This document shows positions 6,058-43,173 of a DNA stretch of 49,475 nt, one piece after another; position 1 is the first letter of the stretch; each line of letters begins with the position of its first letter. Source of the stretch: Anaerolineales bacterium (lineage in GTDB: Bacteria; Chloroflexota; Anaerolineae; Anaerolineales; UBA4823); assembly GCA_020354045.1 (NCBI GenBank), contig CP070639.1, positions 3,037,618-3,087,092 of the forward strand, read 5' to 3'. A program made the position numbers and the translations under genes. The notes beneath the pieces were generated by a model, which was not told where the DNA came from, did not search any database, and was given only the letters and a program-made list of their open reading frames with translations.

Positions 6058-7335
6058 GTGGATAACTCATTTCTGAAAATCCCATACGAAAGATTGGACG
6101 AGATTAATGCAACTTTACTTGATCCTGACAGTAAAGCTATTGGCGACTTCCTGAAAGTCGTTGAAAAATATGGTTCCCCGGTTGAGATCAATCAAAAAGC
6201 TGCGCAGGCGCGCCATTTGCCCGTATTGATGGATAAGGTAAAAGCGGTCAAACCCGATCATTTGACAGACCTCAATTGGCTAAAGGAGATGCGCGACCAG
6301 GGCAAATTCATCAACCTCACTGAATACCGCAAAAAGGTTTTAGGGGCTCGATATGATGAGACTGAATTTAATGAAGATTGCGCTGTCACCCTTGAAATCA
6401 GTGCCGCCCAATACTTCCCCTGGTTACGTGCTGCTGCAGAACGTGCAATTCAACAGGGAGTGCTCATGCCGGGAAGATTTATCCGTGTCCGTAAAATGAA
6501 GGAACAAGAAATGGACGGCGACCTGCCTGCATTTGCAGCAGCCATGCAGATCATCGGTGCCAGTTATGTTGAAACCCTGGACACTAAGGGTACAGATGGC
6601 TCAAACATCCACCTGGGTGGACCAGAAACGATCACAGGCTATTTTGGTGGTGTCGGACAGCCGAACCAGCACGCCCTCGAATGGCTGGATGAATATCTTT
6701 ATTATTACACCAACTATGGTATTTCCCAGATACTTAATATCAACCCAGGCACGGTTTTGCTAGGTTATATGCTTCACCGTCTTGGTGTGGATATCGAATT
6801 CAAGATTTCTGTATTTATGGGCAATGACAACCCTTATGCTGCGCTGTGGACTTTAATAGGAGCAAAACTTTTCGCAAGAGATGATGGTTCCTCTCCACTC
6901 ATCGGTTTTAACTGGAGTAACTCGGTGAATAACGAGACAATTGAAATCACGGCTCAATTCCGCAAAAGCTTGAATTTCGAGCAGGTAGTGAGGTTCGAAC
7001 ACCACATCACCGAGACCTGGAAAAGCATAGTTAGGCAACCGTATAACCGGAGAGAGGAACTGATACAAATTTCGGATCATATCGCCAATGTATCCGCTAA
7101 ACATGAGGGTGGTGACCCTGAGATCGATTCAACTCGACCTCATCCATCTGATATATTGGACTATTTCCGTGACAAATCAGAGGTCATTTCCTCTGGAGAT
7201 TGGGACTATTTATTACAAAACTTTCTCGACAAGTTTGATGCCACCAACAAAACCGCCTGGACATTGACAGAGGCAGGGCTTTCGTTCATTGCCGCCCGTC
7301 ACTTACATCATCAGGAAGAAATGGTTCCCGCCTGA
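6058..7335 (+). CDS. Unidentified 425-residue protein
   Basis: I do not recognise this protein. The start is taken as GTG 6058 because GGAGG at 6048-6052 is ideally spaced; an upstream TTG at 6040 is in frame but overlaps that RBS. The composition is that of a soluble cytoplasmic enzyme, with no signal peptide or membrane helix. Striking segments are ETLDTKGTDGSNIHLGG and GYFGGVGQPNQHALEWL mid-protein, then ILNINPGTVLLGYMLHRLG and FMGNDNPYAALWTLIGAKLF. The alternating beta/alpha look suggests, but does not prove, a TIM-barrel-like fold. It sits between panB and a glutamate-dehydrogenase-like gene and is followed by a hairpin terminator. Confidence 0.8.
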   Translation: MDNSFLKIPYERLDEINATLLDPDSKAIGDFLKVVEKYGSPVEINQKAAQARHLPVLMDKVKAVKPDHLTDLNWLKEMRDQGKFINLTEYRKKVLGARYDETEFNEDCAVTLEISAAQYFPWLRAAAERAIQQGVLMPGRFIRVRKMKEQEMDGDLPAFAAAMQIIGASYVETLDTKGTDGSNIHLGGPETITGYFGGVGQPNQHALEWLDEYLYYYTNYGISQILNINPGTVLLGYMLHRLGVDIEFKISVFMGNDNPYAALWTLIGAKLFARDDGSSPLIGFNWSNSVNNETIEITAQFRKSLNFEQVVRFEHHITETWKSIVRQPYNRREELIQISDHIANVSAKHEGGDPEIDSTRPHPSDILDYFRDKSEVISSGDWDYLLQNFLDKFDATNKTAWTLTEAGLSFIAARHLHHQEEMVPA

Positions 7336-7346
7336 ATTGAAAAAAA

Positions 7347-7379
7347 TGACCCCTGACTTATGTGCCTATCCAGGGGTCA
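7347..7379 (+). terminator. Hairpin terminator after the 6058-7335 gene
   Basis: Perfect 9-bp inverted repeat, TGACCCCTG at 7347-7355 and CAGGGGTCA at 7371-7379, with a 15-base loop. It is preceded by an A-tract and followed by ATTATTTC, a weak U-tract. It separates the unidentified gene from the dehydrogenase gene that starts 30 bases later. Confidence 0.65.
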
Positions 7380-7408
7380 ATTATTTCGAATAATTTTGTG
7401 AGGCAATT

Positions 7409-9280
7409 ATGATACCCAACCAGATGGAAGCCTATTTGCGCGAAAAACTGCCTGAGAGCACCTGGCGAAATCGTTTAATTTGTGAGCAAGGTAAATGCTA
7501 CATGGAATTTAATCCACTGGACGTAGATCGCCTGGCGCGCCTTGGGATCGAAGTAGACAGCCTGGGTCCGCACCTCGTTGTTTGTATGTGGGACGAGGAA
7601 TCCCCTCTTGAAATTGGTGGCTATCTTGTTGTGGACAACCTTGCCATGGGTCGGCCCTCCATGGGAGGCATCCGTATGTTGCCAGAATTAACACCCAACG
7701 CTATCCATAACCTGGCGCGCGGCATGACATTAAAAAACGCGGCTGCTAACTTGCCTTATGGAGGCGGTAAATCCGGCATCATCTCTTCCGGAGGGCTTTC
7801 ATTCAAAGAGCGCGTGGAAGTCATACGCGGGTTCGCTCGCCTAATCTACCGTTATCACTCGATTTACCTGCCAGGTCCCGATGTCGGCACAAATGATGCC
7901 GACATGAAGACCATCGCGGTCGAAAATGGGCTTGACAATGCTCTATCGAAACCCGTCGATATGGGCGGCAACCGCATTGACCAGCTTGGCGCGGCCGCAG
8001 GCGGATTAATCATTGCATTGGAAGGACTTTTGGAAGAGATGCCTCGCTTGCGCGTGCATCCTCAGTTTTCAGATCTGAAACTACCCCATCCTACAGCTCT
8101 GACAGTGCTTATCCAGGGATTTGGGGCAGTAGGCGCTCATGCCGCTCGGATACTCAATGAGCGGATTCCTGGTTCCCGGGTTGTCGGAGTTAGTGATGCC
8201 CTCGGGTATCTATACAACGAGGAGGGCCTACCAGTAAAACAATTATTTCAAAGCTGGTTAGAACGTGGTGTTGTCAGCGCTGCGTATTACCAGGATAACT
8301 TAATGGCAGCTGAAAAAAGGTGGCTTCCAACCAAGTTTTCGACAGCCCCAGATGATATGCTGCGCGAATCAGCTTTTTGTTTAATACCAGCTTCCCCTAT
8401 CGCCAACTATCTGGACCTGGACATATCATCTCGCCCTTGTATAACTGTGGAAAAAATGGGTAACTGGCATGTGATAATTGAGGGGGCTAATACGTACTCA
8501 CCTGAACCAAGCCGCAAGGCAGCGCGGTCCAGGCTTGAAGCACGCATATACCGCCAGAATGGTGTTCTTATGGCTGCCGACTATTTAGTAAATTCCGGAG
8601 GGGTAATATACGCCGCCCAAGAACATTTAATAAAAACACCTGACAACCTTCGAATTCCACAAGATCTTTTAGGCGATCGGGAGAAAGTAGACCAATGGCT
8701 CTCCAAGCACAGCGGTGAACTTGCTAGTTTAGCAGAAAACAGACGTCGAGCTGCCGAAACTTATCGTGACGAAGTCATCCGGCGCAACATGGGCGAATTA
8801 ATAGATTTACTGGTTTCGGACGCAGATATGCTTCCGTGTGAAGCTGCAGAGTATATCAGTATACGTCGTATTGCATCCAGTGAAGCTGACCGAATTGCGG
8901 AGGATATTATGATACCTATACCAACAATATACTCCCATAGTACTTTACGGGAAGCTGCCTCACTCTTGATTGAATCATCCAGTCCAATTCTCGCGGTGTT
9001 ATCTACAGCTGATGAGTTGGTAGGTGTTATTACTGGTTGGGATATAACCCGTGCTACAGCAACTGGAACTCCAGACAGCCAACCGATACAAAAAATCATG
9101 ACCAGCGAGGTCATCTCTGCCAGACCGAGTGACAATGTTTTGGAAATGATTCGCAAACTAGAACACTACGAAATCTCAGCCATGCCAGTTGTAGAAAAGG
9201 GACGTGCGAAAGGATTAATCAGCTCTGACCTACTTGCCAGACGAACACTTATGAGACTACTCCAGGCACACAACTCCTGA
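7409..9280 (+). CDS. Glu/Leu/Phe/Val dehydrogenase fused to C-terminal CBS pair
   Basis: A 623-residue protein. Residues ~50-480 are a glutamate-dehydrogenase-family oxidoreductase: PSMGGIRM, MTLKNAA (Lys109), PYGGGKSGI (catalytic Lys121) and GPDVGTNDADM. A Rossmann domain with GFGAVGAHAA follows, then EGANTYSP and NSGGVIYAAQEH. Residues ~495-620 form two CBS motifs (DIMIPIPTIYSHSTL...GVITGWDI and KIMTSEVISARPSD...AKGLISSDLL). CBS pairs usually bind adenine nucleotides, so energy-state control of amino-acid oxidation is inferred. Family GDHs are 410-450 residues, so the tail is an added module. RBS GAGG precedes ATG 7409. The substrate (Glu or another amino acid) is not certain. Confidence 0.9.
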   Translation: MIPNQMEAYLREKLPESTWRNRLICEQGKCYMEFNPLDVDRLARLGIEVDSLGPHLVVCMWDEESPLEIGGYLVVDNLAMGRPSMGGIRMLPELTPNAIHNLARGMTLKNAAANLPYGGGKSGIISSGGLSFKERVEVIRGFARLIYRYHSIYLPGPDVGTNDADMKTIAVENGLDNALSKPVDMGGNRIDQLGAAAGGLIIALEGLLEEMPRLRVHPQFSDLKLPHPTALTVLIQGFGAVGAHAARILNERIPGSRVVGVSDALGYLYNEEGLPVKQLFQSWLERGVVSAAYYQDNLMAAEKRWLPTKFSTAPDDMLRESAFCLIPASPIANYLDLDISSRPCITVEKMGNWHVIIEGANTYSPEPSRKAARSRLEARIYRQNGVLMAADYLVNSGGVIYAAQEHLIKTPDNLRIPQDLLGDREKVDQWLSKHSGELASLAENRRRAAETYRDEVIRRNMGELIDLLVSDADMLPCEAAEYISIRRIASSEADRIAEDIMIPIPTIYSHSTLREAASLLIESSSPILAVLSTADELVGVITGWDITRATATGTPDSQPIQKIMTSEVISARPSDNVLEMIRKLEHYEISAMPVVEKGRAKGLISSDLLARRTLMRLLQAHNS

Positions 9281-9329
9281 TCTTGGAAACAACCTACATC
9301 CCAATTTTCACCTTGAGAGGATTAATATC

Positions 9330-10853
9330 ATGAAGAGTCTACTTAAAAAATTACAGCTAATGTCATTAAATCCAGGTGCATGTTCAGGAATAAATGCATG
9401 GATTTCAGATCCGAAGGGCAAAGAACTGGTATCTTATAACCCATCAACTGGCGAACCAATAGCTTCTATTATTCAAGCCACATCCACTACTTATGAAAGG
9501 ATTACAAGTAACGCTCAGGCTGTCTTCGACTCCTGGCGAGAAGTGCCAGCACCAAAACGAGGTTTACTAATACATGATCTTGGGCAGGCTCTACGAGAAA
9601 TCAAAGAGCCTTTAGGCGATTTAGTAACACTCGAAATGGGCAAAATTCGTGCAGAAGGACATGGTGAAGTACAAGAGATGATCGATATTTGCGACTTCGC
9701 TGTAGGCTTATCACGGCAGCTTTATGGACTTAGCATGCACTCAGAGCGTCCTCGCCACAGAATGTACGAACAATGGCACCCTTTAGGCATTTTAGGATTG
9801 ATCACCTCTTTTAACTTTCCAGTTGCCGTTTGGTCGTGGAATTCAACCATTGCCTCCATTTGTGGTGATGTTGTTCTTTGGAAACCATCCTCCTATACGC
9901 CCCTTACAGCTGTGGCTGTCCAGCATATCGCCAACCAAGTTATGGCAGACCACGGGTTGCAAGGCATATTTAACCTGATAATTGGTTCAGGGCGTGACAT
10001 TGGCGATCTTCTGTTGAATGACACTCGCATACCATTGGTTTCCTTTACCGGATCGACACAGATTGGCAGGCACGTCTCTGAAACAGTTGCTCAAAGATTT
10101 GGGCGATCGATACTTGAATTAGGAGGCAATAATGCGATTGTGGTGACAGAAGATGCCGATCTTGAACTTGCTACCCGCGCCATTTTATTTGGCGCAGTTG
10201 GAACTGCTGGTCAACGATGTACAAGTACGCGCCGTGTCATCATGCACACAAGTATTGCTAAAGAACTAACTCAACGATTGACCAATGCCTATGCGCAGGT
10301 AACCATCGGAGATCCTCTCGAAGAGAATACACTGATGGGACCGCTGGTTATAAGGTCATCTGTTGAAGAGATGTTTGATGCAATCCAGAAAGCCTTAAAT
10401 GATTCAGGAGAAATCGTTTATGGTGGCAAAATGCTACCTGAATTAGGTCCAAATTTTGTTGAGCCAACAATCATCCGGATGCCCTTACAGACTGATATTG
10501 TTAAAACTGAAACCTTTGCTCCAATACTTTACCTACTTGAATATAACGATCTGGAAGAGGCAATCTCAATTCACAATGAAGTTCCCCAAGGTCTATCAAG
10601 TGCTATCTTTACCGAATCCATCCGTAAAGCCGAACAATTTTTGTCTGCCAAAGGATCAGACTGCGGCATCGCTAATGTAAATATTGGTACATCGGGGGCA
10701 GAGATTGGTGGGGCTTTTGGCGGAGAAAAGGAAACTGGTGGCGGGCGCGAATCAGGTTCGGATGCCTGGAAGGCTTATATGCGCCGTCAAACGAATACTA
10801 TAAACTGGTCACACGACCTGCCTCTTGCACAAGGAATTAAGTTTGGAGAATAA
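9330..10853 (+). CDS. ALDH7-type aldehyde dehydrogenase (aminoadipate semialdehyde dehydrogenase-like)
   Basis: A 507-residue NAD(P)-dependent aldehyde dehydrogenase. The catalytic Cys297 lies in GTAGQRCTSTRR and the general base Glu263 in LELGGNNAIVV. Both signatures are typical of the ALDH7 / antiquitin group, which oxidises 2-aminoadipate 6-semialdehyde (piperideine-6-carboxylate) in lysine catabolism. The C-terminal GGAFGGEKETGGGRESGSD also fits that group. It starts 49 bases after the GDH-CBS gene, suggesting one amino-acid degradation operon. No lysine aminotransferase or lysine dehydrogenase is visible nearby. Its stop codon is two bases from the end of a convergent gene. Confidence 0.9.
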   Translation: MKSLLKKLQLMSLNPGACSGINAWISDPKGKELVSYNPSTGEPIASIIQATSTTYERITSNAQAVFDSWREVPAPKRGLLIHDLGQALREIKEPLGDLVTLEMGKIRAEGHGEVQEMIDICDFAVGLSRQLYGLSMHSERPRHRMYEQWHPLGILGLITSFNFPVAVWSWNSTIASICGDVVLWKPSSYTPLTAVAVQHIANQVMADHGLQGIFNLIIGSGRDIGDLLLNDTRIPLVSFTGSTQIGRHVSETVAQRFGRSILELGGNNAIVVTEDADLELATRAILFGAVGTAGQRCTSTRRVIMHTSIAKELTQRLTNAYAQVTIGDPLEENTLMGPLVIRSSVEEMFDAIQKALNDSGEIVYGGKMLPELGPNFVEPTIIRMPLQTDIVKTETFAPILYLLEYNDLEEAISIHNEVPQGLSSAIFTESIRKAEQFLSAKGSDCGIANVNIGTSGAEIGGAFGGEKETGGGRESGSDAWKAYMRRQTNTINWSHDLPLAQGIKFGE

Positions 10854-10855: not shown

Positions 10856-11641
10856 CTACAAAATCTTTTCCATCATCCCAGCAACAGCCTGATAAACAGG
10901 AGAATCATCACCCAGCTCAACAAGCGGCTTTCCACTGAATTCAAATTCGACCAGCTGGGCATCTGCTGGCACGATCCCCAACAATGGAATATTCATCAAA
11001 TTTATCTTATCATCCAACGCATCCGGAATAACCCCGTTTAGGCGGTTAATGATAAGATAGGAATTTTCCACACGGATGTCTAATTCATGGCGCAGTTCGC
11101 CAATCCTCTCGGCGGTTACCAACCCCCGTTGCGTCGGATCGCTAACAATAAGCAAATGATTTACATCACGCGTTGTCCTGCGACTCAAGTGCTCCATGCC
11201 TGCTTCATTATCGATGACAACGTAACTGTAGTTCTTGCCCATCGCATCAACAACCTCGCGTAGGTTATGATTCACAGCACAATAGCACCCAGGTCCTTCC
11301 GATCTGCCCATTGCGATCAAATCAAAGCGTTCGCCCTCAGAAAGCGATGACCTGATTTGGTAATCGAGATATTCACGTTTACTTATCCCACCAGGCAAAG
11401 CACCCATCGCAGCACCTCCAGCAGTGAGTGAATCTTTCACCTGAGCCAACATATCCTCCCTGATATCACCAACAGTCCACTCCAAGTCCAGCCCTAAAAC
11501 CATGTTCAAATTGCTGCTTGGATCTGCATCAATTGCCAAAACAGAGCCTGATTTATTACGCACCAGATAGGCGATGATCATGCCTGCTATCGTTGTTTTC
11601 CCCACACCACCCTTACCAGCTAACGCGATTGTCTTTGTCAT
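10856..11641 (-). CDS. CooC-like P-loop ATPase (CO dehydrogenase maturation factor family)
   Basis: A 261-residue SIMIBI/MinD-type ATPase with the deviant Walker A motif GKGGVGKTT at the N-terminus. The CooC-specific metal-binding CxC motif appears in EGPGCYCAVN. Family members hydrolyse ATP while inserting nickel into the C-cluster of carbon monoxide dehydrogenase in the cytoplasm. GGAGG precedes ATG 11641 with good spacing. It is the second gene of a two-gene minus-strand operon, 25 bases after its paralogue. No CODH gene (cooS/acsA) is in the window, so the client protein is unknown. Confidence 0.85.
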   Translation of the reverse strand: MTKTIALAGKGGVGKTTIAGMIIAYLVRNKSGSVLAIDADPSSNLNMVLGLDLEWTVGDIREDMLAQVKDSLTAGGAAMGALPGGISKREYLDYQIRSSLSEGERFDLIAMGRSEGPGCYCAVNHNLREVVDAMGKNYSYVVIDNEAGMEHLSRRTTRDVNHLLIVSDPTQRGLVTAERIGELRHELDIRVENSYLIINRLNGVIPDALDDKINLMNIPLLGIVPADAQLVEFEFSGKPLVELGDDSPVYQAVAGMMEKIL

Positions 11642-11666
11642 TAAGGTGCCTCCAATCCTGGAAAAA

Positions 11667-12449
11667 TCAATCAGTCTCTATCATTTCAGATAGCTTATTT
11701 GCCATTTCAACAGCCGCAGACTTCAATTGTGGCAAATGTTCATATACGGCTATTCCCAGACGATCCGCTTCTTGCACACCAAGATTTGCTTGCAGGGTGC
11801 CTAGCAGCGGAATTCCCGGTGTCTCATTTTCCAAAAAGATAATCTCCTCCGGGACACGGATCTTATTACCAACCAACCACATTCTATTCAGACCAATGTC
11901 GGTGGCTAATTTTTTTATCTGTGCAGCCGTACCCAGACTGCGACGAGTTGGTTCTACAACAACCAGCATCGCATCAACAAAATCTACGGTTGCTCTTCCT
12001 AGGTGTTCCACACCAGCGTACATATCCAGTAACAGGATATCATCTTTGCGAAACAACAAGTGCGTAAAAAGTGTTTTCAGCATCGCGCTCTCTGGACAGA
12101 TACAGCCAGAGCCACCAATATCAACCGCACCCATCTCTAATAGTTTAACCCCTCTGTGAGTGACGCTGAATCGTTCAGGTATGTCATCCACACGCGGGTT
12201 GATAGTAAAAAAGCCTCCTACAGTACCTGGTTTCGCCCCCGTGCGCTCATAGATTAAATCATCCATATCCGAAATAGGCGCTAATTGTGCACGACGATCG
12301 TCCGGGAATCCCAATGCACCCGCCAGACAAGGAGATGGGTCTGCATCGACCGCCAACACATGACGTCCTGCATCTGCATATGCCTGCGATAATAATGCAG
12401 TTATCGTTGTTTTACCCACTCCGCCTTTTCCAGTTATGGCCAGTTTCAT
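11667..12449 (-). CDS. CooC-like P-loop ATPase, upstream paralogue
   Basis: About 260 residues, beginning MKLAITGKGGVGKTTI with a deviant Walker A. A Cys-x-Cys (GSGCICPESA) stands at the place of the CooC metal site. Roles in nickel insertion into CODH/ACS-type enzymes are known for this family. I place the start at 12449 because GGAGAG lies 7-10 bases upstream; an in-frame ATG at 12467 would add six residues that do not fit. It leads the operon with the 10856-11641 gene. Two differing CooC paralogues suggest two metalloenzyme clients or a heteromeric factor, which is inference. Confidence 0.85.
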   Translation of the reverse strand: MKLAITGKGGVGKTTITALLSQAYADAGRHVLAVDADPSPCLAGALGFPDDRRAQLAPISDMDDLIYERTGAKPGTVGGFFTINPRVDDIPERFSVTHRGVKLLEMGAVDIGGSGCICPESAMLKTLFTHLLFRKDDILLLDMYAGVEHLGRATVDFVDAMLVVVEPTRRSLGTAAQIKKLATDIGLNRMWLVGNKIRVPEEIIFLENETPGIPLLGTLQANLGVQEADRLGIAVYEHLPQLKSAAVEMANKLSEMIETD

Positions 12450-12629
12450 TATATGCACTCTCTCCATTTGCTCTGAAATTAAAAATACCTCAGGAGTATC
12501 GCATTAAAATTAGAAGTTTTCACACTTTCCATATTAAGCCCGAGTATTGTATCAAATATTAGAAGGAACACCATTTGTTGTTTTTTCAATATTAGAGATC
12601 GAAGGTATACAAATCTAAATGTGTTGCCG

Positions 12630-14951: not shown

Positions 14952-16025
14952 ATGCCAAATACAATAAGCCATACTGGCTCAATTCGTTCACGACTGGCTC
15001 GTGTGCCACTTTTTACCCAGATCGTTATCGCCAACTCCATCATAATAATCATGGGAGCCATTGGTGGTACCTTGTTAACCAGTCATTTAACAGACGTGGC
15101 GGCAGATGTATGGTTGATATTTCTTTTTGCAAGTATTGGCACCACAATGACCATATTGATTAATGGGTGGTTGATTAAAATCGCCCTGCGACCATTACGT
15201 GAGCTCAACCAAGTAATAAGCAGAGTACAAGCGGATTATGATAGTGATAAAACAGGAAGCAGCTATTTTCAACAAGCGGACCCAGACATTCCCCAAATGG
15301 CGGAAGGATTGAACCTGCTGGTTACACGATTAGAAGAGCACAACCGCCAACTCAAAGCATTATCAAAAAGAGCAATATCAGCTCAGGAGGAAGAAAGGAA
15401 AAGAATTGCACGCAGTTTGCATGATGATTCGGGGCAGGCTCTCTCCATGTTGATCATTAACCTTGAAAGACTGGAAAACATGTTACCCCCTGATCAAATC
15501 GATCTACATAACAAATTGGTCAAAACCCGCCAACTTGCATTGCAATCATTATCCGAACTACGTAAAATAATTTACGGGCTCCGCCCCACGGTCCTGGATG
15601 ACCTGGGTCTTGTCCCTGCAATTCGGTGGTATGCTCGTTCTACCCTCGAGGAAGTAGGCATTCGGGTAGACGTCATTGCAAAGGAGGATATCGGGCCAAT
15701 AAACGCTGAAATCAAGACTACATTATTTCGCATCGTCCAGGAAGCTATTAATAACATTGTTAAGCATAGTGCCGCCAAAACAGCTACAATATCTCTGAAT
15801 AAAAACAAACATCAATATATACTCCATGTGCAAGACGATGGACTCGGGTTTGATGTAGAAAAAAGCTCGGAACAAGCCATCCGATTGCAACAATGTGGAT
15901 TGCTAGGGATACGCGAACGAGCTGAACTTGTAAGAGCTGAAATTCGGGTTTCTTCTCAACAAGGCCACGGAACAAGGATAGAAGTGATGGTGCCCATACC
16001 CAAGCCAGGGGAGTATTCAGAATGA
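14952..16025 (+). CDS. NarL-type sensor histidine kinase
   Basis: A 357-residue membrane kinase. Two transmembrane helices (about residues 20-40 and 50-72) have almost no periplasmic loop between them. A HAMP-like linker (ALRPLRELNQVISRV) follows, then a HisKA_3 dimerisation domain with phospho-acceptor His157 in RSLHDDSGQA. The HATPase has an N-box (EAINNIVKHS), a G1 box (DDGLGFD) and GLLGIRER. The tiny extracytoplasmic part suggests sensing within the membrane or cytoplasm. The stop overlaps the response regulator start by four bases. No clear Shine-Dalgarno precedes ATG 14952. Confidence 0.93.
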   Translation: MPNTISHTGSIRSRLARVPLFTQIVIANSIIIIMGAIGGTLLTSHLTDVAADVWLIFLFASIGTTMTILINGWLIKIALRPLRELNQVISRVQADYDSDKTGSSYFQQADPDIPQMAEGLNLLVTRLEEHNRQLKALSKRAISAQEEERKRIARSLHDDSGQALSMLIINLERLENMLPPDQIDLHNKLVKTRQLALQSLSELRKIIYGLRPTVLDDLGLVPAIRWYARSTLEEVGIRVDVIAKEDIGPINAEIKTTLFRIVQEAINNIVKHSAAKTATISLNKNKHQYILHVQDDGLGFDVEKSSEQAIRLQQCGLLGIRERAELVRAEIRVSSQQGHGTRIEVMVPIPKPGEYSE

Positions 16026-16672
16026 CAACCATTCGTATCTTGCTGGCTGACGATCACACCATCGTTCGAGAAGGTATCCGCTCTTTGCTCGAGGATGAAG
16101 AGGATATGTCAGTGGTAGGTGAAGCCGAGGATGGGCATACTGCGATCCGTATTACGCATCAATTGAAACCTGATGTGATTTTGATGGATATTGCTATGCC
16201 ATTGTTGAACGGTTTGGAAGCTACCAGGCGGATCAAGGAGGACTATCCTGAGGCCAAGGTTTTGATCCTCACTATGCACGAAAACGAGGAATATATTCGT
16301 CAAGTGCTGGCTTCAGGTGCCATGGGTTATATTTTAAAAGATGCAGCTGCCCGCGATCTTCTGGGAGCGATCCGTACAGTTCACAAAGGGGAGATGATCC
16401 TCTCACCGGCTGTCACGCGTCTAGTTATTGAAGATTATTTGCGCTGGGGTGATCTGCAACCTGAAAAAAATTCGACAATACTCAGTCCACGCGAGCGAGA
16501 AGTACTTCAACTTATCGCAGAGGGGTACACAAATAAACAAATCGCCGAAATTCTGACCATATCTATAAAGACCGTCCAGACCCACCGCATGAATCTTATG
16601 AAAAAGTTAGATCTACATGATCGTGGTGAATTAATCAAATACGCCATTCAAAAGAAGATTATCGAGATCTAG
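16022..16672 (+). CDS. NarL/FixJ family response regulator
   Basis: A 216-residue protein. The receiver domain has acidic residues LLADDH near the N-terminus, phospho-acceptor Asp56 in ILMDIAMP and Lys in ILKDAAA. A LuxR-type helix-turn-helix follows (SPREREVLQLIAEGYTNKQIAEILTIS, split across about 157-183). It is translationally coupled to the kinase through a 4-base ATGA overlap and closed by a strong terminator. The pair may control the P450 upstream or the respiratory locus downstream. Both are inference from position. Confidence 0.95.
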   Translation: MTTIRILLADDHTIVREGIRSLLEDEEDMSVVGEAEDGHTAIRITHQLKPDVILMDIAMPLLNGLEATRRIKEDYPEAKVLILTMHENEEYIRQVLASGAMGYILKDAAARDLLGAIRTVHKGEMILSPAVTRLVIEDYLRWGDLQPEKNSTILSPREREVLQLIAEGYTNKQIAEILTISIKTVQTHRMNLMKKLDLHDRGELIKYAIQKKIIEI

Positions 16673-16838: not shown

Positions 16839-17876
16839 ATGAGGAAATATTACAAAAAAATTGTTCTGTTTACTCTCCTGCTCGTAATTGTGCTATTTGC
16901 GGGTGCGCTGGGGTTAATTACAACCCATGCTGGCACATTTTCTGATTCAGATAACAGAAATTCCAATGTTAAAAAACCTGATTTTGAGCAAATAAAAAAC
17001 ACGTTAGTGACCCAAGAGCGAAATGTCAATCTGAATGACCCATCAGCGAATCTACCTCCTCCAGAAAAAGACCCTTGTTTACATTGTCATATCAGTGGGG
17101 AGAATAAAAACCTTTGGATGCCATTTATTCGCTGGAGTCTATTCGGTGGTGTGGGGCTGGTATTTGCTTATGGACTATACCGGGGAACAAGCGCCTGGAG
17201 AATTCGCAAACCGTGGAGACCAATTCCGCAAACAGCGACTGAATGGTTAGACGAACGTTACAAGATTGTCGAACCAATCTCCAAAGTACTGAACAAACCG
17301 GTTCCGAAGTTTGCCCTTCGCTGGTGGTATTGCCTGGGTGGCATAACAGCATTTCTGTTTATCGTCCAGGGAATAACAGGCATAATGTTATCTTTTTACT
17401 ATAAGCCTACACCAGAAGCAGCCTACGCCAGTATCCAGTACATTGAGACGCAGGTGCGCTTTGGCTCAGCGGTGCGTATGATCCACCACTGGGCAGCCAA
17501 TGGAATGATTGTCATGTGCATTGCCCATATGCTGCGCGTTTTTATCATGGGTGCTTACAAGCCTCCAAGAGAATTAAACTGGGTTAGCGGAGTGGTATTG
17601 CTGGGTCTGACTTTGTTATTTGGGTTTACTGGTTACCTCTTACCCTGGGATCAACGTGCTTATTGGGCAACCACCGTTGGCACCGAGATAGCCGGCAGCA
17701 TTCCAGGAATCGGCAATCTTGCTCTGGTCTTTCTCAGAGTTGGATGGGACGTTGGCGCACTGACACTAAGCCGATTCTACAGTTTGCATGTTTTAGTCAC
17801 TCCTTTAGCAACCCTATTATTTATGCTTTCCCATTTCTTAATGGTCAGACGCCAGGGTGTTGCCAGACCTTTATAG
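16839..17876 (+). CDS. Cytochrome b6-like subunit with N-terminal CxxCH heme-c site
   Basis: A 345-residue membrane protein. It has an N-terminal helix (KIVLFTLLLVIVLFAGALGLI), then an extracytoplasmic segment with one CxxCH motif (CLHCH, residues 80-84) that should bind a c-type heme. Another helix and the four-helix cytochrome b N-terminal core follow. Paired His ligands for two b hemes are visible in MIHHWAANG / CIAHMLRV and in SLHVLVTP / LSHFLMV. It forms the quinol-oxidising core with the next gene. ATG 16839 has AGAGG six bases upstream. In-frame ATGs at 16764 and 16812 would lengthen it. Confidence 0.88.
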   Translation: MRKYYKKIVLFTLLLVIVLFAGALGLITTHAGTFSDSDNRNSNVKKPDFEQIKNTLVTQERNVNLNDPSANLPPPEKDPCLHCHISGENKNLWMPFIRWSLFGGVGLVFAYGLYRGTSAWRIRKPWRPIPQTATEWLDERYKIVEPISKVLNKPVPKFALRWWYCLGGITAFLFIVQGITGIMLSFYYKPTPEAAYASIQYIETQVRFGSAVRMIHHWAANGMIVMCIAHMLRVFIMGAYKPPRELNWVSGVVLLGLTLLFGFTGYLLPWDQRAYWATTVGTEIAGSIPGIGNLALVFLRVGWDVGALTLSRFYSLHVLVTPLATLLFMLSHFLMVRRQGVARPL

Positions 17877-17905
17877 CCAAAATATAAAATATCTCAGGAG
17901 TTGTA

Positions 17906-18310
17906 ATGACTGAGGCACCACATAATACTAAATCTGAAAGTGTACCTTTCTTTCCTGATCATGTTCGCACCGAGTTGCGTGTTGTAATCGGGGTTACAGC
18001 AGTAGCTATTCTGGTAGGTGTTCTTGGGCTCATCACTCCAGTCGGGCTTGGCCAACCCGCCGATCCACTGGATACTCCAGCTCATATTAAACCGGAGTGG
18101 TATTTTTTAGCTCTTTACCAGTTGCTGAAATTTATTGATAAGACATTTGGAGCAACTCTCCCAGTGATCGCCATTGGAGTGCTGGCATTGTTGCCATTTC
18201 TTGATCGCAACCCTGATAAAAGCCATCAAGCGAAACGTGTCCGATTCATTGCTGTATCTATAGGTATAGTCGTGCTAATCGTAATGACAATTTGGGGAGA
18301 ATTAAGTTAA
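17906..18310 (+). CDS. Cytochrome b subunit IV-like (C-terminal half of cytochrome b)
   Basis: A 134-residue membrane protein carrying the quinol-oxidation (Qo) site motif PEWY in HIKPEWYFLALYQLLK, flanked by about three hydrophobic helices. It corresponds to PetD / the C-terminal half of cytochrome b, here on a separate polypeptide as in b6f-type complexes. AGGAG lies five bases before ATG 17906. It is 29 bases after the cytochrome b6-like gene and two bases before the Rieske start. Confidence 0.9.
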   Translation: MTEAPHNTKSESVPFFPDHVRTELRVVIGVTAVAILVGVLGLITPVGLGQPADPLDTPAHIKPEWYFLALYQLLKFIDKTFGATLPVIAIGVLALLPFLDRNPDKSHQAKRVRFIAVSIGIVVLIVMTIWGELS

Positions 18311-18312
18311 CC

Positions 18313-18747
18313 ATGACTGAAATAACGCGTCGAAACTTCTTGAGCGTCACCCAACGCATTCTGGCATTTACTGGTCTGGCGGCAGTTTTTGGTCCATTAA
18401 TCGCTTACTTTTACCCACCCGAACTGGAAGAAGTTCCCTCCGAGCCAGTCTTTGTGAGTACATTTGAAGAACTGCCCATGGGAACATCAAAAACTGTGCG
18501 CTTTGGCCGCTATCCCGCACTGGTTATTAACACATCTGAGGGCATAAAAGGTTATTCTGCAGTTTGCACACATTTTGCTTGTGTAGTCAAATGGGACGGA
18601 ACTTCAAGCCAGATCTACTGCCCCTGCCACGAGGGATATTTTAATCCCAAAGATGGTAGTGTAATATCTGGACCACCCCCAAAAGCTCTGGAACCTCTTC
18701 CTATCAAACTCTCTGGTAATGAAATATTTGTTGGAGGGCAAGAATGA
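18313..18747 (+). CDS. Rieske iron-sulfur protein
   Basis: A 144-residue [2Fe-2S] protein of a quinol oxidase complex, which takes the first electron from quinol. The twin-arginine motif TRRNFLSV precedes a hydrophobic helix (FTGLAAVFGPLIAYFY) that serves as Tat-exported anchor. The cluster ligands are in CTHFAC and CPCHEGYF, with the Rieske-typical GPPPKALEPLPIK C-terminal stretch. ATG 18313 is preferred over an upstream in-frame TTG at 18292. The stop overlaps the next start (ATGA). Confidence 0.94.
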   Translation: MTEITRRNFLSVTQRILAFTGLAAVFGPLIAYFYPPELEEVPSEPVFVSTFEELPMGTSKTVRFGRYPALVINTSEGIKGYSAVCTHFACVVKWDGTSSQIYCPCHEGYFNPKDGSVISGPPPKALEPLPIKLSGNEIFVGGQE

Positions 18748-20675
18748 ATCCAAATTCCACTTCCCGAACCAGCATGCCCTCAAGGTTATTATTCTCTCAG
18801 CAATCTGAGAAGTGGAATAGTTTATTTTCAAACATCCGCTCATTTCTCCTAAATGCTGTCTTACAGGTGCGAATTCTCAGAAAAGCATACCCAGGCATTA
18901 TGCATTTTCTGATTTTCTGGGGAGTGACGATTCAAGTGGTTGGCACAGCAATTAACTTGATGCAAATGGAGCTGTTCGTTCCATTTGTAGAATTGCCTTT
19001 TCCTCGCGGATCTTGGTATCTCGCATATGAACTGATTATGGATCTAGCAGGTGTAGCCATTGTCATAGGTGTAGCTATGGCTTTCTTCCGCCGTAGCGTT
19101 CTCCATCCAAAAACCTTGGAATCTCGTTGGGATGACTTATTTGCTCTGATCTTGTTGGCACTGATACCCCTGGTCGGCTTCACACTGGAAAGCCTGCGAA
19201 TTCTTACAGTTGAACCTGTCTGGTCAATATGGTCACCTGTTGGTAGAGCTTTGGCTAATCTTTTAGCATACCTTGGGATGGAGGCTAGCTTTGCCTCAAA
19301 ACTTCATCCTTATTTTTTCTGGACCCACATGTCGTTAGGCTTGATTTTAGTAGCCAGTATACCCTTTACAAAGATGCGCCACCTTATCCTGACACCTCTC
19401 AACGTGATCATGCATCCGAAACGCAAAGCTGGAGTGCTTGAAATAATTGAAAATATTGAGCAGGCAGAGTTGTTGGGTGTTGGTCAAATTACTGAATTTT
19501 CACGATCACAATTGTTATCTTTTGACGCCTGTGTTCGGTGTGGAAGATGTGAAGAGGTTTGTCCAGCAACACTGAGCGGTATGTCCTACTCACCCCGCAA
19601 GTTTATCAAAACGCATCGGGAGACAATGCTTACAACAATCACTTATCCTAATGGGAAAGCTGAGAAGCAGTTGTTAGGTGGTGATATATCGGAGGAATAC
19701 CCATGGGTATGTACCACCTGTGGAGCTTGTTCGAACATATGCCCAGCTTTTGTTAATCCAATTGATGAGATCATAGACCTTCGTCGTTACCAAGCTCTCA
19801 CGACTGGCAAATTGCCCAAGCCAGTTGCTGATGTCCTTCGCAATATGGAAAGACAAGGCAATCCCTGGGGCATGCCAGCCGAAGAACGCATTGCCTGGGC
19901 AAACGAACTTAACATAAAGGAGCTTACACCTGGCGATTCTACCGACGTGCTGCTTTTTTTAGGCTGCGCATTGGCATACGACGAACGCAATAAAAAAGTT
20001 GCCCAAGCCTTTATTCGAGTATTACAAAACGCGGATGTTGATTTTGCTTATCTGGGATTGGATGAGGCTTGTTGTGGCGAGACAGCTCGCCGACTCGGTC
20101 ATGAATACTTATATCAAATGTTAGCTGAACAAAATATAGAAGTACTTTCTAAGGTGAAATTTAACCGGGTGGTCACTCAATGCCCCCACTGCTTCAACAC
20201 ACTTAAGAATGAATACCCACAGATGGGTGCAAACTTCATTGTACAACATTCAACCGAATTTTTGGCCGAATTAACAACCTTCCAATCATTAGGGATCAAG
20301 GGTTCGAATGGCTCCAGGAAACAACGCCTGACCTTCCACGATTCTTGTTATCTAGGGCGTTATAACGCAATCTATAAAGAACCACGCAGCTTACTCAACA
20401 TGAGCAATGGAAATCTCGTAGAGATGTCAAGATGCATTGAAAACAGCTTTTGCTGCGGTGGGGGTGGCGGCCAAATGTGGATGGAAACAGACCCTAATAC
20501 CCGCATCAATCATAACAGACTGGCCGAGGTACTTGATATTCAAGCCGATATTGTCACCACGGCTTGTCCCTACTGTTTAATAATGTTCGATGACGCAATT
20601 CGCTCCAAGGGTTTGAGCGAACAATTACAAGTATTGGATGTTGTCGAAGTTATTGATGCGCAACTAGCAAAGTAG
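18744..20675 (+). CDS. Membrane-bound HdrD/GlpC-like Fe-S oxidoreductase
   Basis: A 643-residue protein with three parts. The N-terminal ~220 residues contain about four to five transmembrane helices resembling the NarI/HdrE heme-b type. Two 4Fe-4S motifs follow, CVRCGRCEEVCPA (Cys263 on) and CTTCGACSNICPA (Cys323 on). Two CCG domains (LDEACCGETARR, Cys443; FCCGGGGGQMW, Cys570) are the sites that in HdrB/HdrD bind a catalytic non-cubane cluster. Heterodisulfide-reductase-like proteins exchange electrons between a quinone pool and thiol/disulfide or other partners. The 4-base overlap with the Rieske gene implies co-translation and a functional link to the bc complex. Confidence 0.88.
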   Translation: MNPNSTSRTSMPSRLLFSQQSEKWNSLFSNIRSFLLNAVLQVRILRKAYPGIMHFLIFWGVTIQVVGTAINLMQMELFVPFVELPFPRGSWYLAYELIMDLAGVAIVIGVAMAFFRRSVLHPKTLESRWDDLFALILLALIPLVGFTLESLRILTVEPVWSIWSPVGRALANLLAYLGMEASFASKLHPYFFWTHMSLGLILVASIPFTKMRHLILTPLNVIMHPKRKAGVLEIIENIEQAELLGVGQITEFSRSQLLSFDACVRCGRCEEVCPATLSGMSYSPRKFIKTHRETMLTTITYPNGKAEKQLLGGDISEEYPWVCTTCGACSNICPAFVNPIDEIIDLRRYQALTTGKLPKPVADVLRNMERQGNPWGMPAEERIAWANELNIKELTPGDSTDVLLFLGCALAYDERNKKVAQAFIRVLQNADVDFAYLGLDEACCGETARRLGHEYLYQMLAEQNIEVLSKVKFNRVVTQCPHCFNTLKNEYPQMGANFIVQHSTEFLAELTTFQSLGIKGSNGSRKQRLTFHDSCYLGRYNAIYKEPRSLLNMSNGNLVEMSRCIENSFCCGGGGGQMWMETDPNTRINHNRLAEVLDIQADIVTTACPYCLIMFDDAIRSKGLSEQLQVLDVVEVIDAQLAK

Positions 20676-20750
20676 AGCACTACTCGTGAATAGTGAATCA
20701 AAGACACCGCTCATAAACTCCGAGGAAGTTATAGATAAGGAGATAAGACC

Positions 20751-21785
20751 ATGTACAATGCGTTTATGATCAACACCAGAGGAGACCCTCTTGGAACCGT
20801 CCGCAACCTCATTCTCTCAATCTGGCAGGATGCAGATTTGCATGCTCTGCTTGTGCCCACTAATGGAGAACCAGACTCTCCGTACAGAACGAGTTTGCTT
20901 GAAAGCTCTGATCAGCTAAACCAGATTAACCCATTCAATCCTATCATGCGAACAAATGCTGCTCGCATGGTACCAGGACTGCTGCAAAGTTACCCGAATA
21001 GTCGTATCGGTGTTTTATTTCGCCCCTGTGAAATGCGTGCGTTAAGAGCAATGGGAAAACGCGATGGTTTAAAACTAGATAATCTGACTACAATTTCCTT
21101 TGATTGTCTAGGAACTTATCCTACCAATGAATTCAAATGGCGAGCAGAGCGAAAAGGATCAAGCGAAGCATTAACACAAGAGACTCTTCAATTTGCAAGA
21201 CAGGGGGGTATCATGGCGTATCGCTATCGAGGCGCATGCCAATTATGTGGCGAACCCCATGCGAGTGAAGCAGATGTGAATATTGGTGTGCTTGGTCTAC
21301 CGGTGCGTCAGTTCATTTTATTATCGACCAGAGACAAAACCATAAATGACAAATTGCACTTGGAGAAATGGTCGCCTAAGCACGCAGACTCGAATGTTCT
21401 AAATCAACGTGTTCAAGTAATCGCCAGGCTTGCGGAAAGAAGGAATAGTACCCGCGAAAGAGTCATACAAGGGATAGCTGATGTCTTGCCTACAGATATC
21501 GAATCATTGATTGTGCATCTTGCGGATTGCGGTAAGTGTCAAGCATGCCTTGACGCCTGCCCATTGTGCATGATTGATTTCCCCCAAAGAGATGAATACT
21601 TTCGCTATCAAATTAACGACATCAAAGAGTGGCTGGGTTCTTGCTCCGGCTGCGGTATGTGCGAACAAGCCTGCCCACAACATCACCCATTAACAGCAAT
21701 CTTCTCCCATATTCACAAGGAATTAACTGATGATTTTAAATATTCTATACTTAATTCTCCGGCAGGTCCTCTCTTGATCCAATAA
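20751..21785 (+). CDS. FrhB/FdhB-like 4Fe-4S oxidoreductase beta subunit
   Basis: A 344-residue soluble protein. The central part (VLFRPCEMRALRAMGKRDGL and CRGxC-like RGACQLCGEP) resembles the F420-hydrogenase/dehydrogenase beta family. The C-terminus carries two ferredoxin motifs, CGKCQACLDACPLC and CSGCGMCEQACP. Family members bind FAD and Fe-S clusters and pass electrons between a soluble carrier and a partner subunit. AAGGAG lies eight bases before ATG 20751. It is probably the last gene of the cytochrome b / Rieske / HdrD-like operon, suggesting a soluble electron entry or exit point. Confidence 0.8.
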   Translation: MYNAFMINTRGDPLGTVRNLILSIWQDADLHALLVPTNGEPDSPYRTSLLESSDQLNQINPFNPIMRTNAARMVPGLLQSYPNSRIGVLFRPCEMRALRAMGKRDGLKLDNLTTISFDCLGTYPTNEFKWRAERKGSSEALTQETLQFARQGGIMAYRYRGACQLCGEPHASEADVNIGVLGLPVRQFILLSTRDKTINDKLHLEKWSPKHADSNVLNQRVQVIARLAERRNSTRERVIQGIADVLPTDIESLIVHLADCGKCQACLDACPLCMIDFPQRDEYFRYQINDIKEWLGSCSGCGMCEQACPQHHPLTAIFSHIHKELTDDFKYSILNSPAGPLLIQ

Positions 21786-23518: not shown

Positions 23519-23848
23519 GTGTCTGATTCTGAGCTTGTTTTTATAGAAAATCTAGATGATGAAAACTCACATATTCCACCTGATAGCATCCTCAGTCGCA
23601 CCATTCTAAATAACGAACGCATGAAAGTGGTTTTATTCAGTTTCGCACCCGGGCAAGAACTATCAGAACATACGGCGTCGATGCCAGCAATCATGCACAT
23701 TCTAGATGGAGAAGCAAAGCTAACACTCGGTGGACAAGAGAAAACAAGTACAACGGGCAGTTGGGCATATATGCCAGCCAACCTACCCCACAGTGTTCAT
23801 GCAAAGACAGTGGTAAAGATGTTATTGCTATTAATTAAGAATTCATGA
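23519..23848 (+). CDS. Cupin domain protein
   Basis: A 109-residue single-domain cupin. GQELSEHTASMPAIMHILDGEAKL gives the first cupin motif (His in SEHT, Glu in DGEA). AYMPANLPHSVHAKTVVKML gives the second (His in LPHSVHA). The fold usually holds a divalent metal and serves as a sensor or small enzyme. The start is GTG 23519 with AGGAGAG at 23503-23509. The stop overlaps the following ATG by four bases. Confidence 0.88.
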   Translation: MSDSELVFIENLDDENSHIPPDSILSRTILNNERMKVVLFSFAPGQELSEHTASMPAIMHILDGEAKLTLGGQEKTSTTGSWAYMPANLPHSVHAKTVVKMLLLLIKNS

Positions 23849-24948
23849 CCGTTCCAAAAAAGCATGTACTACCAATCCTTATCCTAGCCTTGATCTCATT
23901 GCTGAGCGCGATTTGGGCAGGTTGGTCACGAATTGGTTGGCGCATTCCTGTTCCACCATCGGGATTGGTTCTCAACCATGGTCCCTTGATGACCATATGT
24001 TTTCTAGGGAGTTTAATTTCACTCGAACGAGCAGTAGCATTAAAAAAAACGTGGATGTTCACTGCACCAATTTTGATGGGGGTGGCCGGGCTAGTGTTGA
24101 TAGCGGGCATATCGAGCTTTTCGGGAAAAATCATATTATCACTGGGAAGTTTTATTTTTGTTCTCATCCAAATCGCAATCGTTCTAACCCATTCAGCTTT
24201 ATACACATGGGCATTACTGGCAGGTGCACTATGTGCATTAATTGGGAATATCCTTTGGCTGGGTGGTTATCATGTTCACCAAGTGGTTTGGTGGTGGGCA
24301 TTTTTTCTTGTATATACTATCGCTGGAGAGCGGCTTGAACTAGGTAGAGTCGTCCGATTGCCGCTTTTTGCCCGAATTATGTTCACCGCATTATGCACAC
24401 TAGCACTCTTGGGGCTAATATCGACAACTATGAAAATCTCCCTGGGCTATACACTAATTGGAATATGTTTACTTGGACTCGGAGCCTGGTTTCTGCGCTA
24501 TGACATTGCACGGAAAGCTATACTTCGATCTGTACAGAATAATCTGCAACTTACTCGCTACATTGCCATCGCGTTGCTTTTGGGTTTTGTATGGTTAGCC
24601 CTTAGTGGAATAACAGTTATTCTGTTCAGTTTTCCGCCTGCCGGCCTAATTTACGATTCAATACTCCATATGCTATTTATCGGTTTTGTGTTTTCCATGA
24701 TATTTGGACACGCACCTATCATTCTGCCTTCCTTATTCGGACTACGGTTTAACTTTGAGTCTATGCTGTATTTCCCACTAATACTTTTACATTTATCTTT
24801 AACCCTGCGAATTTGGGGTGACTTGAGCCGCCAAGTGATTTTGCGCTCGTGGGGTGGTTTATTGAACGGTATTGCAATCCTGTTGTTTTTGGGTTTGATG
24901 CTTGTCACAATATATAAGTCAAAAGTTGGTTTCAGAGAGGTATTATGA
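23845..24948 (+). CDS. Polytopic membrane protein, NnrS-like
   Basis: A 367-residue protein with roughly ten to twelve hydrophobic helices and conserved-looking His residues, including NHGPLM near residue 45, GGYHVHQVVWWW mid-protein, and LHMLFIGFVFSMIFGHAPIILP in the second half. This pattern resembles NnrS, a heme- and copper-associated membrane protein tied to nitric-oxide response, but the match is by eye only. Four-base ATGA overlaps with both the cupin upstream and the DUF166-like gene downstream point to co-translation. Confidence 0.6.
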   Translation: MTVPKKHVLPILILALISLLSAIWAGWSRIGWRIPVPPSGLVLNHGPLMTICFLGSLISLERAVALKKTWMFTAPILMGVAGLVLIAGISSFSGKIILSLGSFIFVLIQIAIVLTHSALYTWALLAGALCALIGNILWLGGYHVHQVVWWWAFFLVYTIAGERLELGRVVRLPLFARIMFTALCTLALLGLISTTMKISLGYTLIGICLLGLGAWFLRYDIARKAILRSVQNNLQLTRYIAIALLLGFVWLALSGITVILFSFPPAGLIYDSILHMLFIGFVFSMIFGHAPIILPSLFGLRFNFESMLYFPLILLHLSLTLRIWGDLSRQVILRSWGGLLNGIAILLFLGLMLVTIYKSKVGFREVL

Positions 24949-25706
24949 GAATTCTGACTATCATTAATGGGGAGTATGGCGCTCGTCATGCAGAAAATAT
25001 CCGTCAAAATGGACCTTCAGATTGGATAATCTCCATCTGGCAAGCTCCAACACATTTCCCTTTGATCATTGATTATCCAGAAGACCACCTACCAAAGGAG
25101 TTGCCACCATCTGAGCTCATATTATCATTTGCCGAACACAAAGGTGTAGCCGAATTGTTACCGGAAATTGCAGTTATGACCGGCGCGAAAGCTGTAATTG
25201 CACCGGTTGATAATGAAGCCTGGCTTCCTCGTGGCTTGGCCCGACAATTGCGTGGGTGGCTTGAGAGAATGGATGTAGCATGTGTCACCCCCAAGCCACT
25301 TTGTTCCTTGACTGAGGCAGATTTTGGTGTCACGCGCCGGCAACGGATTCAATACGAAAATGCTTGGATCAAGAAATTTGCGTCACATTTTGGTCAACCT
25401 GACCTGACAATTACCGTAGATCCGGATTCGCGTGTAATCACGGAGATAGCTGTGGTCCGGGATGCCGTTTGTGGTTGTGCCAGGTATGTTGCTGAAAAGC
25501 TGGTTGGTCTCTCCGCCGACGATGCAGCAGAAAAGGCGGGGCTGCTCCACCATCATTACCCCTGTTTGGCAAGCATGGGAAAAGATATCGACTTTGATGA
25601 CACACTGATGCACGTTTCTGGGAATGTCTTAAAGGACAACGTTAGCTACCAGGTAAAACCCTTTAAACTTGATCAGTTTATATCACCTGGCAATCGTAGC
25701 GATTAA
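24945..25706 (+). CDS. DUF166-like protein
   Basis: A 253-residue soluble protein resembling the DUF166 family, best known from methanogenic archaea and of unsettled function. Conserved-looking Cys residues occur in CVTPKPLCSLTEADFG, in VVRDAVCGCARYVAEKL and in HHHYPCLASMGKD, suggesting a metal or Fe-S site. GAGAGG is five bases before ATG 24945, which overlaps the previous stop. It ends the four-gene operon. The assignment is from memory of the family's C-terminal HYPCLASM-type motif. Confidence 0.65.
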   Translation: MRILTIINGEYGARHAENIRQNGPSDWIISIWQAPTHFPLIIDYPEDHLPKELPPSELILSFAEHKGVAELLPEIAVMTGAKAVIAPVDNEAWLPRGLARQLRGWLERMDVACVTPKPLCSLTEADFGVTRRQRIQYENAWIKKFASHFGQPDLTITVDPDSRVITEIAVVRDAVCGCARYVAEKLVGLSADDAAEKAGLLHHHYPCLASMGKDIDFDDTLMHVSGNVLKDNVSYQVKPFKLDQFISPGNRSD

Positions 25707-40400: not shown

Positions 40401-40421
40401 TAGGCTGCTGTTATTGAATCA

Positions 40422-42857: not shown

Positions 42858-42875
42858 TAATACGAGGAGGCTTTC

Positions 42876-43160
42876 ATGTGTTTAGGAGTTCCCGGGAAAA
42901 TAGTGGAAATCTACGATGTTGAAGGACTTACCATGGGAAAAGTCGATTTTGGTGGTGTAATGCGCGAAGCCTGCCTGGAATATGTGCCTGAAGCAAAGAC
43001 TGGAGATTACACCATCATTCATGTTGGCTTTGCCCTCAACCTGATCAGCGAGCAAGAAGCCATGGAAACGCTTGCCATGTTGAAAGAGATCGCTGCCTTG
43101 GGAGGTGAAGATCCATTCAACGAAATCCGCCCGCAATCCGGTCCCGCAGTAACTGAATGA
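42876..43160 (+). CDS. hypC: Hydrogenase assembly chaperone HypC
   Basis: A 94-residue chaperone beginning MCLGVPGKI, with the essential Cys2 that holds the Fe(CN)2CO moiety together with Hyp[11 protein letters not shown]-type residues ([16 protein letters not shown]) follow the family. GAGGAGG lies five bases before ATG 42876, the strongest Shine-Dalgarno of the operon. This fits the need for high levels of this small protein. Confidence 0.96.
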
Positions 43161-43173
43161 TCAGGATCGTTCT

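Follow-up and report, generated by a model that had tools for sequence, protein, structure and literature searches.

We describe a cluster of five genes of an Anaerolineales bacterium (genome G000; 3.59 Mb, one scaffold) that is most naturally read as a membrane complex joining a quinol-oxidizing bc module to a cytosolic Fe-S arm. The stretch of DNA that we analyzed, hereafter the window, comprises 49,475 nucleotides (contig CP070639.1, positions 3,037,618 to 3,087,092). The genes for a cytochrome b6-like subunit, subunit IV, a Rieske protein, an HdrD-like membrane protein, and an FrhB-like Fe-S protein lie consecutively on one strand at 16839-21785. We propose that the cluster encodes a b6-type complex of low potential whose fixed EtfD-type arm would feed cytosolic electrons into the menaquinone/b6 chain, a reading that we judge from sequence to have a probability of about 0.5. 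The reading as a complex is supported by the co-inheritance of the genes, by translational coupling through a 4-base overlap, and by the conservation of the cofactor ligands. A preliminary description of this DNA had already suggested such a membrane complex, and its account of the gene order, the motifs, and the Rieske/HdrD-like overlap was confirmed. The features of the cluster are as follows.

16839-17876, + strand: cytochrome b6-like subunit (Pfam Cytochrome_B, E=6.4e-51)
17076-17090, + strand: CLHCH heme c motif in the linker between the first and second transmembrane (TM) segments of b6 (C80, C83, and H84 invariant in 14 orthologs)
17331-17333, + strand: codon of the heme c_n/c_i Cys (C165) in WYCLGG (invariant in 14 orthologs)
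17906-18310, + strand: subunit IV (PetD-like) with PEWY (Pfam Cytochrom_B_C, E=2.7e-20)
18313-18747, + strand: Rieske [2Fe-2S] protein with one TM segment (Rieske, E=1.1e-10; motifs CTHFAC and CPCH)
18744-18747, + strand: ATGA, the Rieske stop shared with the HdrD-like start (read in the window sequence)
18744-20675, + strand: HdrD-like membrane Fe-S protein of the EtfD/FadF/EMO family (Pfam; phmmer to EtfD 9ojn_A)
20751-21785, + strand: soluble Fe-S protein of the FdhB/FrhB fold (PDB profile matches, fold match, and ortholog alignment)

For b6, the ATG at 16839 is preferred; an upstream ATG exists at 16764, but relatives begin near 16839. An alternative TTG start of the Rieske gene at 18292, given in the list of open reading frames, is unlikely.

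Conservation of the gene cluster

Orthologs of the HdrD-like protein were separated from paralogs by sequence identity (51-68% versus at most about 44%) and occur in 25 Anaerolineae genomes, namely 21 of the 61 relatives, G391, G422, and the genomes of loci L060 and L061; the named contigs that bear the cluster are labelled Anaerolineales or Chloroflexi. When the relatives were searched with profile A3, which represents the b6 with the heme-c N-terminus, this type of b6 was found in 20 of 61, all of them within the 21 HdrD-like-positive genomes. G002 is the sole HdrD-like-positive relative without it, and its locus begins at a contig end. Class-wide, among 396 genomes, the full b6 occurs in three, and the HdrD-like ortholog (>1000 bits) is present in the same three, always adjacent. 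The order b6-IV-Rieske-HdrD is unbroken on one contig in 19 loci, including the window; the preliminary description had named the separation of the HdrD-like and FrhB-like genes from the bc genes in relatives as speaking against its proposal, and the conserved core of four genes does not bear this out. In G013 (L055), the order only seems to be interrupted: the gene contains a run of N, probably a scaffold gap and not a rearrangement. Moreover, the 4-base overlap of the Rieske and HdrD-like genes is kept in 20/20 loci (NTGA in 18/18 loci, the window, and L219), and a GGAGG-like site usually lies inside the 3' end of the Rieske gene. Across genera and families, identity is 56-66% for b6, 51-68% for the HdrD-like protein, and 32-48% for the FrhB-like protein, and the gene order kept over these distances rules out chance adjacency of the five genes. 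Conservation of all five genes, however, was borne out only in part: the FrhB-like gene is missing from 5 of the 24 loci that could be judged, and the stable unit therefore consists of four genes. For the same reason, we rejected the FrhB-like protein as an essential catalytic subunit of every complex.

We also scanned for distant members of the HdrD family and retained the best 80 loci. Among these, the 77 other loci (L062-L138) come from many phyla, share 33-41% identity, and have no b6, IV, Rieske, or FrhB-like gene in the flanking sequence that was available; an independent bc/HdrD pairing may therefore exist outside these best 80.

Two variant loci were observed. In L060 (Anaerolineales BB38, 7298-9890), a 241-aa remnant of b6 with CXXCH directly precedes the HdrD-like gene, and subunit IV, Rieske, and FrhB-like genes are not present nearby; by manual reading, the remnant has one b-heme His pair, with the b_P ligands kept and the b_N ligands gone. 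L174 (118-3782), on a 4-kb contig without b6, IV, Rieske, or HdrD, carries the histidine kinase/response regulator pair found upstream of the cluster; next come an FrhB-like gene and a gene for a multiheme protein resembling cytochrome c7/c3. These variants suggest that the modules can be lost separately and that the link between b6 and the HdrD-like protein is the most persistent.

The Rieske/cytochrome b module

The b6 subunit consists of an N-terminal TM segment, the CLHCH linker, a second TM segment, and the b6 bundle. The preliminary description had rightly called it b6-like but had missed the N-terminal TM segment with CXXCH, the c_n Cys, and the regulatory gene pair upstream. Judged from topology, the heme c bound at CXXCH would lie on the positive (P) side of the membrane. 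The four b-heme His residues of b6 are invariant in 14 orthologs, and together with the split b6 and IV, PEWY, and the Rieske boxes they mark a b6-type complex. No separate subunit of the cytochrome f/c1 type is encoded in the cluster; instead, the N-terminus of b6 carries CXXCH. Two other Rieske/cytochrome b loci are present in the genome, one beside a diheme c protein pair and one beside a cytochrome with seven CXXCH motifs. Because the c_n Cys is absent from the two cytochromes b at these loci, the b6 locus described here appears to be specialized. A related b6 with the c_n Cys was seen in L222 (1973-8916), beside a 13-CXXCH cytochrome and molybdopterin/PsrB/NrfD-like genes, which makes it a further unusual cluster with a b6 in this class.

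Box II of the window Rieske protein is CPCHEGYF, and the family pattern CPCH[EDA][GA][YFA]F holds in 17/17 sequences. None of the 17 has the Ser or the Tyr that raise the potential; Gly or Ala occupies the Ser site and Phe the Tyr site. In yeast, loss of the Ser and of the Tyr lowers the Rieske potential by about 130 and 65 mV, respectively, as cited in PMC12954380. Because both residues are absent, the Rieske protein is probably of the low-potential, menaquinol type.

The HdrD-like subunit

The HdrD-like protein combines a membrane part resembling NarI with a 4Fe-4S dicluster and two CCG domains (two stretches of PF02754), as the preliminary description had noted in part. Its closest solved relative is EtfD of M. 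smegmatis (9ojn_A; phmmer E=2.7e-97, both parts covered). All EtfD ligands (PMC13083937) are identical in it, namely H54/H213 for heme b, eight cubane Cys, five D2 Cys, and H482; the Cys residues of the D1 cluster are C408, C443, C480, and C483. These ligands are conserved across orthologs except for one gap at H213. By its ligands, the protein is thus an electron wire of the EtfD/FadF/EMO family, predicted to carry heme b, two cubane clusters, and two CCG clusters.

The orthologs differ from their relatives at a few positions. Residue 444 (EtfD Thr539) is Cys in 19/19 orthologs and in only 13/88 relatives, which gives a full Hdr-type first CCG domain. Residue 61 is Val in 19/19 orthologs, whereas 81/88 relatives have Phe at this position, where EtfD has its menaquinone-stacking Phe85, and the nearby Leu to Gln64 change is also specific to the clade; residue 202 (EtfD Phe230) is Leu or Phe in the orthologs. 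The replacement of the stacking Phe by Val suggests that these proteins do not employ the EtfD quinone pocket as EtfD itself does, and points to an electron handover away from the quinone site of EtfD. The D2-capping His482 of EtfD is present in 19/19 orthologs. In EtfD, this cap renders the second CCG cluster non-catalytic (PMC13083937). Because the second cluster carries the EtfD-type cap, two-cluster disulfide chemistry of the Hdr type is unlikely, contrary to the thiol chemistry considered in the preliminary description, and the candidate role of a catalytic heterodisulfide reductase (HdrDE/HdrB) is weakened. The protein also falls short of the equivalog models for DsrK, HmcF, and TmcB (53.7, 55.1, and 57.8 bits against cut-offs of 400, 750, and 735). 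No EtfAB genes were seen adjoining the cluster, and the use of electron transfer flavoprotein (ETF) is only a candidate. In another Anaerolineae genome, an EtfD-family paralog lies downstream of complex-I-like (NuoC/NuoD-like) genes (L221:383-8935).

The FrhB-like subunit

The C-terminal 2[4Fe-4S] domain of the FrhB-like protein scored above the Pfam cut-off, while PF04432 (FrhB_FdhB_C) reached 21.4 bits in the window protein, just below its cut-off of 23.3, and matched 10/15 orthologs (E<=0.001). Profile matches were obtained to 9t1s_M, 7bkb_E, and 8rvu_E. The predicted model (predicted local distance difference test (pLDDT) 79.6) matched the fold of 7bkb_E with Z 24.9 over 325 aligned residues (root mean square deviation 3.9 A), compared with Z 18.1 for FrhB (4ci0_C). 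C93, C119, C163, and C166 are invariant in 15 sequences and equal the FrhB cluster positions Cys104/134/192/195 (PMC3591093); the two most distant relatives lack one ligand of the first C-terminal cluster. The preliminary label FrhB-like therefore holds for the fold and the four core Cys residues, whereas the protein is closer to FdhB, is not universal, and has no QDGG. In FrhB, QDGG is the FAD pyrophosphate motif at the N-terminus of the first helix (PMC3930138). With GDPLG in its place, flavin and F420 binding are only candidate properties. The protein is FdhB-like in predicted fold and is a probable soluble partner of the membrane proteins.

The F420 gene cofE occurs in 52/61 relatives, including this genome, which indicates that F420 is available and no more; F420 specificity of the complex was rejected as a deduction from cofE, which occurs in most relatives with or without the cluster and does not discriminate. 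A large soluble Hdr-type cluster was observed in the same genome (L169:9344-19904 and L170:1084-7562, about 131-150 kb). It encodes several HdrA-like proteins, among them one that is 1524 aa long and includes a GltD-like part, as well as HdrB/C-like, soluble HdrD-like, MvhD-like, FrdA/FrdB-like, and acyl-CoA dehydrogenase-like proteins, and at least two FrhB-like paralogs. Because such paralogs sit in a soluble Hdr-type cluster, FrhB-like proteins may act as partners of Hdr-family proteins.

Flanking genes and distribution of related functions

Directly upstream of the cluster lie two genes of a two-component system.

14952-16025, + strand: HisKA_3 histidine kinase (Pfam HisKA_3 and HATPase_c; homolog in 8 compared loci)
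16022-16672, + strand: NarL/LuxR-type response regulator (Pfam Response_reg and GerE; upstream homolog in 10 loci, mean identity 76%)

This pair (14952-16672) is likely a regulator rather than a subunit. Two CooC/MinD-like ATPases are encoded near the cluster (window 10856-12467, - strand), with homologs near the cluster in four other loci. CO dehydrogenase was found in 16/17 cluster-bearing genomes and in 17/36 others (genomes at least 80% complete; Fisher p=0.0009, uncorrected for phylogeny), which we regard as a lead only; in G029, G032, and G018, its gene lies on the same contig, 22-55 kb from the cluster. Three cluster-bearing genomes that are >90% complete (G007, G053, and G056) lack COX1. 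We therefore rejected an obligate link to a heme-copper oxidase, and O2 respiration through such an oxidase is not required.

Further downstream, the window encodes a 367-aa multi-pass membrane protein with no Pfam/NCBIfam match, whose gene has a 4-base overlap with that of a DUF166 protein (23845-25706, + strand). A run of HypB-, HypF-, HypD-, and HypE-like open reading frames resembling hydrogenase maturation genes was recognized by inspection at 39735-45386 (+ strand), and the same inspection noticed no hydrogenase structural genes beside it.

Proposed electron transfer and alternatives

The core would be a four-subunit membrane complex consisting of b6, with heme c on the P side and heme c_n on the negative (N) side, subunit IV, the Rieske protein, and the EtfD-type wire, to which the FdhB-like protein would be the usual yet replaceable soluble partner. 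A cytosolic carrier, with F420H2, reduced ferredoxin, NAD(P)H, and ETF as candidates, would reduce the CCG clusters; the choice among F420, NAD(P)H, ferredoxin, and thiol is not decidable from sequence. From the CCG end, electrons may pass through D2 and the two cubane clusters (D3 and D4) to the heme b of the HdrD-like protein, and from there either to menaquinone in the vicinity or to c_n/b_N at the quinone site of the N side. Menaquinol would be oxidized at the PEWY/Rieske site, one electron going to the Rieske protein and the b6 heme c and the other to the b hemes. A low-potential, menaquinol-type Rieske protein suits this forward flow because Ser and Tyr are lacking throughout the family, and forward input is at least as likely as confurcation or reverse flow. 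The route resembles the entry of ferredoxin/FNR electrons proposed for b6f, where heme c_n is the suggested N-side entry point (PMC9342900). A stronger version, in which c_n is hard-wired through the EtfD-type chain to a soluble low-potential carrier and bypasses the N-side quinone pool in either direction, including quinol-driven reduction of the carrier, is a tentative possibility that we would not expect to hold.

Several points weigh against the proposed complex with its input of cytosolic electrons. The FrhB-like gene lies downstream in 19/24 loci, which leaves the soluble donor uncertain; it is not downstream in G002, G056, G422, and the genomes of L060 and L061, and was not found anywhere in the genomes of G056, L060, and L061 (E<=1e-15). 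Where the protein exists, QDGG is not found in its family. The supposed handover to c_n is deduced from a single substitution and a single cysteine. For the HdrD-like protein, the AlphaFold model was poor (pLDDT 62, predicted TM-score 0.45) and was left unused, so that no interface could be taken from it.

The main alternative is that separate enzymes are merely co-transcribed: the HdrD-like and FrhB-like proteins would form an EMO/EtfD-type carrier:menaquinone oxidoreductase and the bc module an ordinary menaquinol oxidase, jointly regulated and in contact solely through the quinone pool. EtfD, FadF, and the DUF224 protein of S. wolfei indeed act alone as ETF:menaquinone oxidoreductases (PMC13083937, PMC3582634), and the shared upstream kinase/regulator pair also fits this reading. 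Separate enzymes do not readily account, however, for the clade-wide changes at the quinone pocket of EtfD (Phe85 to Val, Leu to Gln64), the near-perfect co-inheritance with one special b6 (c_n plus heme c) and with no other bc complex, the invariable gene overlap, or L060, where the HdrD-like protein persists beside a reduced b6 although IV and Rieske have been lost. We therefore consider this explanation doubtful.

Electron bifurcation as proposed for the anammox complexes Kuste4569-4574 and Kustd1480-1485 (PMC12954380), which share the layout of b6, IV, Rieske, and N-side oxidoreductase, would send the first menaquinol electron to Rieske/heme c and the second through b_P, b_N, c_n, and the Fe-S wire to F420, NAD(P)+, or ferredoxin. 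The presence of cofE and the enrichment of CO dehydrogenase in bearers, where low-potential electrons might be wanted, would fit this scheme, but the anammox Rieske proteins carry the Ser and have potentials of +303 and +335 mV (PMC12954380). With a low-potential Rieske protein, the menaquinol drive would be too small for NAD(P)H or F420H2, and electron movement toward the N side would oppose the membrane potential. Because the Rieske protein lacks both potential-raising residues, confurcation and NAD(P)H-making bifurcation are less likely; accordingly, the confurcation or reverse flow raised in the preliminary description is not favored, and we regard an anammox-like bifurcation as unlikely. 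Less probable still is a thiol/disulfide link across the membrane, of the kind seen in DsrMKJOP, Hmc, and Tmc, in which a cytosolic disulfide at the open CCG domain would exchange electrons with quinol or the P-side heme c. The complete Hdr-type CC motif formed with Cys444 and the weak similarity to the DsrK, HmcF, and TmcB models point in this direction, but all those scores are far under the curated cut-offs, the second cluster is capped by His482, and no DsrC-like or other disulfide carrier was seen among the genes around the cluster.

Comparison with known systems

For a Rieske/cytochrome b complex with an oxidoreductase on its N side, the closest precedent is provided by the anammox complexes. 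These share with the present cluster a b6-like cytochrome b, IV, Rieske, and an N-side redox subunit; they differ in having an NfnABC-related FAD/NAD(P) protein on the N side, a hexa- or octaheme cytochrome on the P side, and a high-potential Rieske protein with Ser (PMC12954380), where the present cluster has an EtfD-type arm with an FdhB-like protein, a heme c fused to b6, and a Rieske protein without Ser and Tyr. EtfD, FadF, and DUF224 proteins of the EMO type share the domain order and all EtfD heme and Fe-S ligands (PMC13083937, PMC3582634) but work alone with ETF, whereas the HdrD-like protein has a constant bc-module neighbor and no adjacent EtfAB, Val at the menaquinone-stacking position, and the extra Cys444 in its first CCG domain. 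Cytochrome b6f and the b6-type complexes of Gram-positive bacteria with c_n have in common with it the split b6/IV, the c_n Cys, PEWY, and Rieske; only the present cluster lacks cytochrome f/c1, places heme c on an N-terminal extension of b6, and includes a dedicated Fe-S input subunit. The FrhB-like protein shares its fold with FdhB of the Methanospirillum and Methanothermobacter Fdh/Elp-Hdr complexes (7bkb_E, Z 24.9; 8rvu_E, Z 24.2), being colinear over residues 7-322, as well as the four core Cys and the C-terminal 2[4Fe-4S]; unlike FdhB, it has GDPLG for GG/QDGG and a membrane HdrD-like partner, and its cluster does not encode a formate dehydrogenase subunit. DsrMKJOP, Hmc, and Tmc likewise are membrane complexes that link a P-side heme c, a quinone site, and a cytosolic CCG protein. 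They are not known to contain a Rieske/b6 module. In line with the preliminary description, no complex of this composition was described in the open-access papers that we searched; the composition thus appears to be new, while the concept is preceded by the anammox Rieske/cytochrome b complexes.

Significance

Direct entry or exit of electrons at the N-side heme of a bc-type complex has yet to be settled, both for b6f cyclic flow and for anammox energetics. If the proposed complex exists, its permanent Fe-S arm, conserved in 25 of the examined Anaerolineae genomes, would allow this question to be tested on one particle. The arrangement could couple soluble low-potential electrons permanently to respiration, and uncultured Chloroflexota, many of them with CO dehydrogenase, would be able to draw proton motive force from soluble low-potential carriers without Rnf or complex I.

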